Source: Picochlorum sp. 'celeri' (Eukaryota > Chlorophyta > Trebouxiophyceae). From it: a stretch of DNA of 64,000 nt. The stretch covers positions 930,001-994,000 of the forward strand of contig JAACMV010000005.1 in assembly GCA_010909725.1 (NCBI GenBank). The letters are read 5' to 3'. Both the position numbers and the translations under genes were made by a program. The notes beneath the pieces were generated by a model, which did not search any database, was not told the origin of the DNA, and worked only from the letters and a program-made list of their open reading frames with translations. Below are positions 13,929-64,000 of the stretch, in pieces. The stretch's first letter is position 1, and each line of letters opens with the position of its first letter.

Positions 13929-13980
13929 TTTTGCTCGCAGAGGACGTTATGCCCTCCTAGATACAAGGCTGGTGCTCTAA

Positions 13981-13993
13981 ACCAACTGAGCTA
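13981..13993 (-). promoter_or_regulatory. Internal A box of the permuted tRNA
   Basis: The D-arm segment TAGCTCAGTTGG fits the Pol III A-box consensus. Because of the permutation it lies downstream of the B box instead of upstream. Transcription by Pol III would have to tolerate this order, as in the known permuted tRNA genes. Confidence 0.55.
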
Positions 13994-14042
13994 TAGAAGC
14001 ATATCCCTACGTGAGGGGCATCATGTGTCTGCTTCTACCGTG

Positions 14043-14053
14043 GTTCGAACACG
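14043..14053 (-). promoter_or_regulatory. Internal B box of the permuted tRNA
   Basis: The T-arm segment GTGTTCGAACC (minus strand) resembles the B-box consensus GGTTCGANNCC, differing at the second base. It lies upstream of the A box, the reverse of the normal tRNA-gene order. Confidence 0.5.
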
Positions 14054-14112
14054 GGACCCCCAGCTGTCTGGCTGGATGCGATGATCCAATCACAAGAGAG
14101 ATTTTTTTACAC

Positions 14113-25138: not shown

Positions 25139-27798
25139 TTATTCTATTTGTGACGTTGATATTGTAGGGGCGTGAGCCTCTTCCAACTTCAATTTCTTTT
25201 CGACGAGGTCATACGCCTCGATGACATCCCCTTCTGCCCAGTCCTTGAAGCTCTCCATGGCAACTCCGCATTCAGTCCCTGAGGCAACTTCTTTCACATC
25301 GTCCTTCACTCGACGGAGCGACGACAGATTTCCTTCGTGCACAGTTTTCTTTCCTCTTTTCACTACGATGAATGCATTCTTTGTAAGCAATCCGTCAGTG
25401 ACGAGACATCCTGCAGCTTTCCTGCTACCAGATCCAAATACAGCCTTCACCTCTGCCTCGCCTATCTTCACCTTTTCTTCTACTGATTTCAAGCGCCCTT
25501 CCATGGCAGCCCTAACATCATCAACCAAGTCATAGATTACGGAATATGTTCGAAGAGTAACATTGTTCTTTTTCGCCTCAGATGTCACAGAATCTGAGGG
25601 TTGCACATTGAAACCAAGCACCATGCCGCCAGAGGCAACTGCCAAATCAATATCTGAGGCTGTTATATCTCCTGGAGCGGAGAGCAAATATCTCAACATA
25701 ACTGTGTCTTGTGGAAGGGCAGCCAATGCAGCCTTGACTGCTTCGCACGATCCTGATGCATCAGCCTTCAGGATGATGTTCATGCGTTGGAGAACTTGTT
25801 CTTCGTTCTCGTCATCCATACTAGCAAGAGACGATAAAGTTACCATATTACCTCCCCCGGCCATTTCGGACAGCCTCTCCAGCCTTCTTGCATCCTCGAC
25901 AGATTCTGCTGCCTGTCGAGCCCTGGTCTCGCTGTCGAATACTTCAAACACGTCACCTGCCTGGGGAACAGAATTGAGACCAAGTACCTGGGCAGCCATG
26001 GAGGGACCAATTTCTTCTACATCCCCCGCAGACGTTTTCATCGATCTCACCTTACCATAGGAACCACCTGCAGCAATGCAGTCCCCTACCTTCAAGTGTC
26101 CATTCTGCACTAACAGCGTTGTCATAGGTCCCGACTTGCGATCCAGGCATGCCTCAAGAACCGTTCCTGTGGCTGATCGCTCGGGATTTGCAACCAGTTC
26201 CTCAAGTTCAGCTACGAGCAGGACTGTTTCAAGAAGATCATCCACCCCCATTCCTTTCTTTGCAGATATGTTCACCATGGGAGTTTTTCCTCCCCATTCC
26301 TCTGGAATCAGTTCTACTTCTGTGAGTTCTTGTTTCACTTTCTCAGGGTTGGCTCCTTCCTTGTCTATCTTGTTTATAGCCACAACAATTGGGACACCTG
26401 CAGCTTTGGCGTGACTGATTGCCTCCAGTGTCTGTGGACGGACGCCATCATCAGCTGCAACAATGATGATGGCAATATCTGTCACCCTCGCACCTCGGGC
26501 CCTCATCGCACTAAATGCCTGTACGAGAAAAAGACGATTGAAATTAGGAATGGCGAAAATAGAGACTCGTGTGTTGACCAAAGTTTTGAAGGCATGCCTC
26601 AGAATTAAAAAGCTCGTTTTGTTGTTTCAACAAGACTAATTCAGCGTTGGATTTTGGTTTCGCATCATTGGCAAGCACAATTTACTGACCAAGTTCACCT
26701 TGTGAAAAAACGTACCTCATGCCCTGGTGTGTCCAGAAACGTGACAGCCTTCCTCTCATCATTGTAGTCCACTTTGCATGTGTAGGCTCCGATCGATTGA
26801 GTGATCCCTCCAGCCTCATCCGCTGCGACCTTGGCTTTTCTCACAAAGTCCAAAAGTGAGGTTTTCCCGTGATCAACATGACCCATTACAGTTACAACGG
26901 GCGGCCTTGTCTGCAGGTTGTCGATGTCATCCTCACTAATAAAATCTCTAGACTTTTTGGCACTGTCTTCCACCTTCTCATCAATATCGAGCACGTCCAC
27001 CCCGTACTCCTCGCCTACAAGTTTCACAGTATCAGGATCTAACGTAGAATTTACTTGTACCGCGAGCCCTTTCATGAAGAGCTTCTTGACAATATCCACT
27101 GGTGGTACGGCAAGCATCTCTGCCAGGTCTGGCACGGACATGCCATCTGGGCCCACCTCGAATATTTCTTCTCGCACTGGAGCAGAGGCCAAGGCCTCCT
27201 GCTTTCTCTCTGCCTTTCTGTTTTGTCGGGCTTTACGCCTATTCGCCAGGTTTATCTTTTGCTGCGCCCTTCTGTTGCCAGGCTGTCCTCTACCTCCTCG
27301 ACTGGGACCGTCATCATATCCGCCCTTTCCTTTGTTCCCGCCCTTGGCATTATTCCCATGTGGACCTCTTCGACTATTTCTTCCACCCTGACTGTTCCCC
27401 TCGGTATTCATTGGAACGTCAGGGAAACTGGCTGGCGATGTGGCCTGGGCTCCTGGGCTCTGTCGCTCCCTATTTCCATGATCACCCTTTTTCGTACCAC
27501 CTCCACGTCGACCACCTGGGGCAGGCGCCCTAGTCATCCGTGGGGGAGGACGCTTTGGTCTCTCTAATAGCTCTGGCTCATCGCCTTCTGCTGACGCAGA
27601 AGTGGCAAAGATACCGCGAGTGCCCGCCATACTATCCCTCACAAATACTGGGGCGATACGTGCCTTATTCGCCCACATTTCACCCAAAAGGTGATATTTC
27701 CTTGTCAAAATGTCTCGTCTTACACCAGAACCTCGAACTTGTCCCGCAGCATGTCCTGGCTGCACTCCGCCACGTGGTCTGGACAGTCTGCCGCTCAT
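25139..27798 (-). CDS. Organellar (probably plastid) translation initiation factor IF-2
   Basis: IF-2 brings initiator tRNA to the small ribosomal subunit. Exons 26716-27798 and 25139-26518 give about 820 residues; the intron (donor GTACGT) interrupts just after the G3 motif DTPGHE. The N-terminal 100 residues are basic and Ser/Ala-rich, fitting an organelle transit peptide, followed by a Gly/Arg/Lys-rich linker. The IF2_N domain has [10 protein letters not shown] and [11 protein letters not shown]. The G domain shows [12 protein letters not shown] (G1), [16 protein letters not shown] and AINKIDKEG. Domains II-IV follow. Plastid rather than mitochondrial targeting is inferred, not shown. Confidence 0.9.
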
Positions 27799-62380: not shown

Positions 62381-64000
62381 GGTATGTATGCAATCATCGT
62401 GTGTCATCGTGGTGGTTTGGCAATGTACGCATACATTCTAAGGCTATGGATGGACGGTCCATCTGAGGGTCCATCCGAGGCAGATGGACCAGCACATGTG
62501 TAGCATGTGGACATCCATCCATTTTCATGTGGACTCTCATGTGGACCGACCGTGAGTCCCACCATTTCTCTGCGCAGTATTGATTGTGAGATTAAATCAA
62601 ATGTTACACGTGTCAATCCAACATTTAAAACTAGTATCGAATCAAGTCAAGGAGACGACAGACGAAAGAAAACCAAGCCAGGTGGTTGTGGGATGCAACC
62701 TCTGGGCCTCTTGTGGTGAACCTACCCCATTGTTTGTCGTCGAACGTTGCACCTTTTGCTCTGTGCCTTCCGCCCTTTGTTTTTCTTTTTCGAACAGATG
62801 GATCGATTTGTCCTGCGAGCCTGGCGCGTGGCTAGTTTTGTTTTACTTGCCTTGGTTTGGGGCTGTACCTGCTCTTGCAATCATCTTCTCAACTCCTTTT
62901 CTTGGTTCTTGTTACTTGGCGGTCTTTTGAATCCCGACTATTCGGCACGGTGTCAAATACTAGTAGATCCCCATTCAACAGCCAACCTATTGAGGGTGAG
63001 CTCACCTCCATTTTTTTGTCACAGGCTCGTTTTGTATTGTTGTTCCAATCAATGTTGTTGACTGGTATATACAAACGCATGATAATAAATTGTCTTTGTT
63101 CTCGATGTTTTACTTTTGAATGTTGATTGTTGTGTAGCAGAGAAGCCTTTCTTTTTTTTCTTCTGTAGTTGTAGCTCCTACATTCATTGATCCAGGTCAG
63201 AGCAGCTCCTGTGGTGGCCACATTCCCTGATCTTTTGGTGGACAGACAACACCTATCATTTCAATCAAAACCAGATTGATTCTGCTATACATCTTTTGTT
63301 CTTGTATTGTTGTAAGTGGATACGACAGACTACTAGAAATACTGCTCAGAAAGCAGTCGCGTGTCAGGACAGCAGCAGGGTGTGTTGCACGATTCCCAAC
63401 AAATCTCTGTGTGTGTGAGTGTCCGCATCCATCCTCATACCCATCCTATTTACCATACGAAAGAATAGATCGATTAGAACACATTTTTTGATTATTCGTG
63501 TTATTGTTGTGTTTTCTGAATCCACGAATCAGCATACGGAGGTATAGGTATGTATGGAGGTGTTTTGCTGTTTTGTTTGTTTAGGGTCTGTGGACGGTGG
63601 GTGAGCACACATTGTGTGCTATTGCTATTACTCCTCTCTTTGTTTTTTCTACCTCTCGAGCAGCAACAGCAGTAATTATTGTTGTTTGTTTTTAGTAGTA
63701 GTAAACCAACTGTAATAGTTGTAGAGAAGAAGAAGAACAAAACGTGTAGCTCTTCTTATCAAGGTCTTTCACTCTCCACAGGGAGGGTAGATAGTAGGTT
63801 GAAGGCATCGGTCCGACGGGGTATTGGACCGATCGGCGAGGTCGGCCTCCTTTTTCTTTCTTTTTCGGGCGTGTCCGTCCGTAAATGAGGGCAATAAAAA
63901 AGGATGACCATGGGCCAGAGAGCCCACACGCCTTAGCCGCTCGGCCACACTCAGCGTGCTTTTTCATCTCCTATCACAAGGGAGGTTTGACCGAGGATAT
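62381..64000. other. Non-coding tail of the window, about 1.6 kb
   Basis: No firm gene. A plus-strand frame from an ATG at 62801 to 63061 (87 codons) starts with a hydrophobic stretch (RAWRVASFVLLALVWGCT) like a signal peptide, but has no relatives I recognise and reads poorly after residue 65. The rest is T-rich on the plus strand with short AGCAGCAA/GTAGTAGT repeats. The last 120 bp hold an inverted repeat-unit fragment and a tRNA-like segment. Confidence 0.35.
63865..63955 (-). other. tRNA-like 5' portion fused to an inverted repeat-unit fragment
   Basis: On the minus strand GTGGCCGAGCGGCTAAGGCG matches the A-box/D-arm region of serine/leucine tRNAs. The expected anticodon loop and T arm do not follow; instead a TTTTTT run, then the TTTACGGACGGAC motif of the tandem repeat in inverse orientation. 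It could be a tRNA-derived short interspersed element or a decayed tRNA. The window ends 45 bp beyond, so a missing partner half upstream cannot be excluded. Confidence 0.35.

Follow-up and report, generated by a model that had tools for sequence, protein, structure and literature searches.

The nuclear genome of the trebouxiophyte alga Picochlorum celeri very probably contains a working, circularly permuted tRNA-Thr(UGU) gene of type II, in which the 3' half of the tRNA precedes the 5' half and the two are joined at the 37/38 junction. The gene lies in a 64-kb window (the whole stretch of DNA that was analysed, 64,000 nucleotides) and had been proposed in a first-pass annotation made from the sequence alone; that interpretation is supported because the structure, the 37/38 junction, the pairing at the splice site, the conservation between haplotypes and the failure of our searches to find an ordinary copy all fit a working permuted gene. 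Since at least 16 more tRNA genes share this back-to-front layout, many tRNAs of the alga are probably produced through a circle, which forms when the ends of a precursor are joined and is reopened elsewhere. The elements of the Thr(UGU) locus, in the order in which they would be transcribed, are:

14122-14113, minus strand: TATA-like TATTTATAAA, lying 48-57 nt before the 3' half, read from the sequence; putative function
14100..14106, minus strand: AAAAATC, one mismatch from the upstream element GAAAWTC, which for the Thr(UGU) gene alone is at chance level
14066..14071, minus strand: last six bases of the leader, in the bulge-helix part of the splice site
14065-14030, minus strand: 3' half of tRNA-Thr(UGU), 36 nt, tRNA positions 38-73 (sequence, ARAGORN on the joined halves, model R2)
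14029-14001, minus strand: spacer, 29 nt, the loop closing the acceptor stem (sequence)
14000-13962, minus strand: 5' half of tRNA-Thr(UGU), 39 nt, tRNA positions 1-37 (sequence, ARAGORN on the joined halves, model R2)
13963..13965, minus strand: anticodon TGT (UGU) (ARAGORN, sequence)
13928-13924, minus strand: first T-run, TTTTT, starting 34 nt past the 5' half; presumed RNA polymerase III terminator
13919-13915, minus strand: second T-run, TTTTT; possible back-up terminator

The order on the minus strand is 3' half, spacer and 5' half, so that the acceptor ends face the short spacer. The 3' half (14030..14065) opens with A38 and continues through the 3' strand of the anticodon stem, the variable loop, the T arm and the 3' acceptor strand to the discriminator A, while the 5' half (13962..14000) comprises the 5' acceptor strand, the D arm, the 5' strand of the anticodon stem and the anticodon loop as far as A37, which closes it. 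CCA is not encoded, the discriminator A at 14030 being followed by GAC. The joined 75-mer is called by ARAGORN as tRNA-Thr(tgt), with stems of 7 bp (acceptor), 4 bp (D), 5 bp (anticodon) and 5 bp (T), and shows the canonical features of eukaryotic tRNAs, namely U8, G18G19, U33, TTC and full stems. Direct reading of the sequence bears out the first-pass arrangement of a 3' half, a 29-nt spacer and a 5' half on the minus strand, ARAGORN on the joined 75-mer agrees with the full cloverleaf with anticodon TGT claimed there, and the T-runs downstream and the TATA-like motif upstream are both present. Taken on their own, T-runs and TATTTATAAA in an A+T-rich intergenic stretch are weak evidence, and the latter, at -57 to -48, is a candidate element. 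The reversed order of the halves rules out an ordinary intron-containing tRNA gene. A split, trans-spliced tRNA is likewise ruled out by halves that lie 29 nt apart on one strand with no T-run of four or more between them; such runs are absent from the halves and spacer of the gene. Archaeal split tRNAs, for example those of Nanoarchaeum equitans (mentioned in PMC3978253), resemble the Picochlorum gene in that their halves are joined by the tRNA-splicing machinery, but the Picochlorum halves are 29 nt apart, on one strand and in one presumed transcript.

Run unpermuted on the 64-kb window, ARAGORN found no tRNA, a sign that some tRNA genes of this Picochlorum genome escape the standard tRNA finders; the Rfam tRNA model gave a weak match to the 5' half and the sequence downstream of it (13932-14000), at 18.8 bits against a gathering score of 29 bits. 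Model R2 is a covariance model made solely from 10 ordinary tRNAs of the same genome that had been permuted in silico. The Thr(UGU) gene was excluded from it, so its match is measured without circularity. In the window R2 recovers the Thr(UGU) locus (14065-13962) at 66.9 bits, with an E-value of about 7e-20 on a rough calibration, and this is its only match at E<=10 in 64 kb. Among 18 ordinary tRNA loci used as a control, in which half-matches are expected, the highest score was 29.7 bits.

The splicing step is supported by pairing at the splice site, shown statistically across the permuted genes. In green algae the junction of permuted genes is described as an hBH motif at 37/38 that is devoid of an outer helix, and the yeast enzyme as reading the anticodon-intron pair (PMC3978253, in the part concerned with splicing). 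In the Thr(UGU) gene, the leader bases G 14068 (-3), A 14069 (-4) and C 14071 (-6) pair with C32 (13967), U33 (13966) and G35, respectively, which provides three of the four pairs of the central helix. A pair between leader base -3 and base 32 forms in 14 of 16 distinct permuted genes (the second Arg(UCG) copy was omitted from the pairing tests as a near-duplicate), a count reached by 13 of 50,000 leader swaps, and the type of pair differs by gene: C-G in five, U-A in eight and G-U in one, the position being unpaired in Ser(GCU) and Val(CAC). Of the 64 possible pairs of the 4-bp central helix in the same genes, 49 are present, a value reached by 0 of 50,000 swaps, and ten other offsets give 17-30 pairs of 64. 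When one gene per amino acid is used, the -3/32 and central-helix tests weaken to P 0.018 and 0.024. The -3/32 pair is the anticodon-intron pair of tRNA-splicing endonuclease substrates and, as judged from its sequence, the Thr(UGU) gene has a reduced BHB-type (hBH) splice motif. Pairing of leader with trailer past the central helix, as an outer helix, was not enriched in 14 genes (22/56, P 0.29), nor did the folding energies of whole leader and trailer flanks in 14 genes exceed those of shuffles or swapped partners (P 0.51). The predicted free energy of the Thr(UGU) precursor is no better than that of shuffles (z -0.20), and its minimum-energy fold is not the tRNA. As none of these comparisons shows added stability, folding is not used as support. 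The tRNA-splicing endonuclease domain (PF01974) occurs in two distinct genes of the genome, which, from their motifs, look like Sen34 and Sen2. One of them is seen as seven matches of the same score and frame length on contigs C10, C16, C9, C12, C21, C25 and C26, three of which occupy the identical place 1564-1779 of their contigs, as if the locus had been copied.

The published phased diploid assembly of P. celeri has 27.43 Mb in two sets of 15 scaffolds and a G+C content of 46% (PMC7225527); the assembly analysed here has 27.41 Mb in 30 contigs, many of them in evident homologous pairs. The window has a G+C content of 48.4%, and six of eight of its open reading frames scanned against Pfam match families, including IF-2B, cullin, protein kinase and bacterial-type IF-2, a content that appears to suit an algal nuclear genome. 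The other haplotype (contig C20) carries the same permuted Thr(UGU) gene as C5, with 97% identity over 221 bp. Over 350 bp there are seven differences, none of them among the 75 positions of the halves; the spacer and 150-nt flanks differ at 7/329 positions, and the spacer alone at 2/29. Pooling 14 gene pairs gives 1/1067 differences in the halves versus 49/4729 in the spacers together with the 150-nt flanks (Fisher P 7e-4), and the sole difference in the halves is one inserted nucleotide in a copy of Arg(UCG); this test left out two Ala pairs with diverged alleles, and the Ala(AGC) pair was not in the comparison. In the two diverged Ala pairs the alleles differ at 15/141 aligned positions of the halves and 20/52 spacer positions, and the alleles on the second contig are again permuted (model R1, 63.5 and 51.8 bits).

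A BLAST search of the genome with the joined 75-mer matches only these two halves, on C5 and C20, and Thr is absent among the 18 ordinary tRNAs obtained from the RF00005 search, for which 63 of 866 candidates were scored. The search for an ordinary tRNA-Thr(UGU) gene, suggested in the first-pass annotation as a check, thus came back empty within these limits, and with that share of candidates scored the absence of an ordinary, diverged or intron-split copy elsewhere is not strict. The product would read ACA, which is the commonest Thr codon in 12 open reading frames of the window (125/317).

The alternative that survives best, and still an unlikely one, is that the locus is a pseudogene, an unused relic of a tandem tRNA duplication whose outer halves were lost. 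Such a gene could plausibly arise by tandem duplication, CCAGCC of the 5' half recurs in the leader, and the precursor folds poorly in silico. The stems are nevertheless perfect, both haplotypes have intact halves whereas the spacer and flanks differ between them, the splice-site pairing is kept with matching changes across 16 genes, the 75-mer reveals no ordinary copy, and 16 other genes have the same anatomy. Less probable again is that the locus makes a stable small RNA, circular or tRNA-derived, with its own role, and that the supply of tRNA is secondary: the published pathway does go through a circular RNA (PMC3978253, as outlined there) and the spacer loop would be free to carry other sequence, but it is the spacer that varies between haplotypes and not the halves, and spacer length varies between 11 and 128 nt among the 17 permuted genes. 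A mis-join or local rearrangement that swapped the halves of an ordinary gene, named as a possible refutation in the first-pass annotation and conceivable in a long-read assembly polished without short reads (PMC7225527), has a negligible probability given the identical order on the phased contigs C5 and C20 and the 16 other loci built in the same way, every one of which has its permuted counterpart on another contig. A working permuted gene is therefore the reading that we retain.

Across the genome, at least 17 permuted tRNA genes were found, Thr(UGU) among them, and at least 20 ordinary ones; the permuted share of the genes found is 17/37, and the true ratio may differ because the census is incomplete and both counts are lower bounds. 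The permuted genes are:

Thr: Thr(UGU)
Arg: Arg(UCU), Arg(UCG) twice, Arg(CCU)
Ala: Ala(CGC), Ala(UGC), Ala(AGC)
Cys and Gly: Cys(GCA), Gly(GCC)
Leu: Leu(UAA), Leu(CAG), Leu(AAG)
Ser: Ser(GCU), Ser(AGA)
Val: Val(AAC), Val(CAC)

All 17 have the junction at 37/38, are called by ARAGORN as tRNAs with these anticodons in their joined forms, and have a permuted counterpart on a second contig, that of Ala(AGC) (L172) being in a shifted place on the other strand. Candidate loci were gathered over both haplotypes with two T-arm patterns, which hit 88 and 99 places compared with 83 and 74 for the reversed controls, so that most of these places are chance; 39 and 45 were taken for analysis, the rest being assigned by position to second alleles or known ordinary genes, and two of the T-arm places are inside the window. 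Five D-arm patterns added 13 analysed places, the remaining D-arm places lying mostly near contig ends. Applied to 96 loci, R2 found 16 permuted tRNAs in 15 loci at 68.2-29.2 bits, the next score being 16.8 bits. Ser(AGA) in L104, at 29.2 bits, falls within the half-match range of ordinary genes (up to 29.7) and was kept because all its stems and four of four central pairs are complete and ARAGORN calls it. In four class II genes the model match shortened the 3' half, which was extended by eye to the anticodon stem. The ordinary genes comprise 18 distinct ones, from 34 RF00005 matches paired by position, together with Arg(ACG) and Ser(UGA) read by eye; for some intron-containing genes the anticodon called by ARAGORN was re-read by eye. 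T arms without G52-C62 could be reached only through the D-arm patterns or the original Thr(UGU) locus, and no His, Tyr or Gln gene, ordinary or permuted, was found in this incomplete census; for these two reasons both counts are lower bounds.

Several candidates were set aside. R2 matches of 9.9-13.9 bits near contig ends (L062, L079, L087, L088 and L093) are not counted; ARAGORN finds no tRNA in the joined forms of L079, L087, L088 and L093, and L062 contained nothing that could be dissected. L073 (16.8 and 11.1 bits) was rejected as a permuted gene and reads by eye as the ordinary intron-containing Arg(ACG). ARAGORN also calls Cys(aca) in L060 and, with an intron, Ser(aga) in L129; both were judged spurious or doubtful and are not counted.

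Some of the permuted genes occur in arrangements of their own. Two nearly identical permuted Arg(UCG) genes with a 128-nt spacer lie on one contig (L070 and L072, C8), a pair which suggests that permuted genes may be duplicated whole; the insertion in one Arg(UCG) copy is in the 3' half on C17, in one haplotype. At C5:52586-53017 (L169), permuted Val(CAC) and Val(AAC) genes form a tail-to-tail pair on opposite strands, separated by about 250 bp, and show no haplotype difference, 150-nt flanks included. The alleles of the permuted Ala genes (L061/L140, L075/L136 and L092/L172) are strongly diverged in D arms and spacers, while the anticodon loop and most of the cloverleaf persist, with one Ala(AGC) counterpart on the opposite strand, a pattern that resembles exchange or conversion among Ala genes.

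All 17 permuted genes have a T-run of at least four starting 4-37 nt past the 5' half, and among 15 genes checked only Leu(UAA) has such a run inside the halves or spacer, at the anticodon. Upstream, an exact GAAAWTC was found in 6/14 permuted and 5/18 ordinary genes, compared with 0.019 per random 100-mer drawn from the window, the motif having been chosen from the same data used for counting; with up to one mismatch it occurs in 28% of random window 100-mers. We keep it as a lead to a possible upstream element of permuted and ordinary tRNA genes alike. It often appears as CAGGAAATTC, upstream of genes of both kinds (for example in L012, L014, L017, L060, L066, L085, L086 and L148), and the upstream distance is 24-58 nt for nine of the 11 exact sites and 97-98 nt for the other two. 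Two of 18 ordinary genes checked, Asn(GUU) and Phe(GAA), have an 18-nt T-arm-like stretch, AGAGGTCCCGGGTTCAAA, immediately upstream (L013:183-200, and matching in L021), and their upstream 200 nt share a 40-nt string ending in poly-A. The stretch could be a dispersed repeat or be left over from a tandem duplication, or it could act as an upstream B box.

In the pathway that we propose for the Thr(UGU) gene, RNA polymerase III would make one RNA with leader, 3' half, spacer, 5' half and trailer, which would fold into the tRNA body with the spacer closing the acceptor stem and the leader and trailer leaving at the anticodon loop. The tRNA-splicing endonuclease would cut after A37 and before A38, and a ligase would join the ends into a circle. 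By analogy with the published pathway, the spacer would presumably then be removed by RNase P and tRNase Z, followed by CCA addition. We lean, by a narrow margin of belief, towards permutation being mainstream in this alga, such that about half of its nuclear tRNA set, including every Thr, Ala and Cys gene found, would pass through a circular precursor and have the B box upstream of the A box. If so, translation would depend on anticodon-loop splicing beyond the extent described in the literature compared, and RNA polymerase III would routinely start on genes with a B box upstream of the A box, using the GAAAWTC upstream element common to ordinary genes.

Permuted tRNA genes are known from Cyanidioschyzon merolae, four prasinophytes, a nucleomorph and the archaeon Thermofilum pendens, as reviewed in part of PMC3978253, and have been reported from the trebouxiophyte Auxenochlorella (PMC12636532 and its preprint, in the passages on tRNA genes). 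The groups named in the first-pass annotation were correctly listed as known, but its list lacked T. pendens and Auxenochlorella, and with these cases already described the novelty of the Thr(UGU) gene is lower than was thought there. The type II genes of prasinophytes resemble it closely, as they also have the 3' half first, the 37/38 junction, a reduced hBH motif and a short spacer. For Ostreococcus and Micromonas, a table in PMC3978253 based on Maruyama et al. 2010 lists 19 permuted genes from four species, with 3-6 per species, largely Ser, Leu, Cys and iMet, whereas Picochlorum, which belongs to another class, Trebouxiophyceae, has at least 17, including Thr, three Ala, two Val, four Arg and Gly; Thr(UGU) is absent from that table. 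C. merolae shares with the Picochlorum gene the gene order, the presumed circular intermediate, the putative TATA-like motif upstream, the T-stretch downstream and the lack of an encoded CCA, and its permuted set includes type II Thr genes (CGU and AGU); its joins fall at 20/21, 37/38, 50/51 or 59/60, in contrast to 37/38 in 17/17 Picochlorum genes (PMC3978253). Auxenochlorella UTEX 250-A, of a different genus, is like Picochlorum a diploid trebouxiophyte with permuted tRNA genes, which came to light there through an incomplete tRNAscan-SE set (PMC12636532, same passages).

Among the papers listed on permuted tRNA genes in general, in green algae, in Trebouxiophyceae and in Picochlorum, we found none whose title or abstract describes such genes in Picochlorum; the Picochlorum SENEW3 genome paper used tRNAscan-SE, and the word 'permuted' is absent from its text (PMC11092101). 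The kind of gene is known already, and what is new, relative to the review table in PMC3978253, is the extent: at least 17 genes, compared with 11 in C. merolae and at most 6 per prasinophyte species, and an Arg(UCG) spacer of 128 nt, compared with the longest given there, 74. Transformation and CRISPR editing are reported in the genus (PMC12633428), and this number of genes in an editable genus makes testable the need for circularisation, the action of RNA polymerase III on reversed boxes, and the origin and spread of permuted genes.

Two further features of the window were recorded. A SNORD36 box C/D snoRNA (26594-26673, minus strand, 49.6 bits) lies between the open reading frames 25139-26581 and 26695-27798; because these carry complementary parts of one bacterial-type IF-2, the snoRNA is probably intron-hosted. 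At 63929-63947 (minus strand) a class II tRNA-like D arm, TGGCCGAGCGGCTAAGGCG, is followed by a T-run, and many contigs have similar copies of this D arm near their ends, at a distance of about 2 kb.
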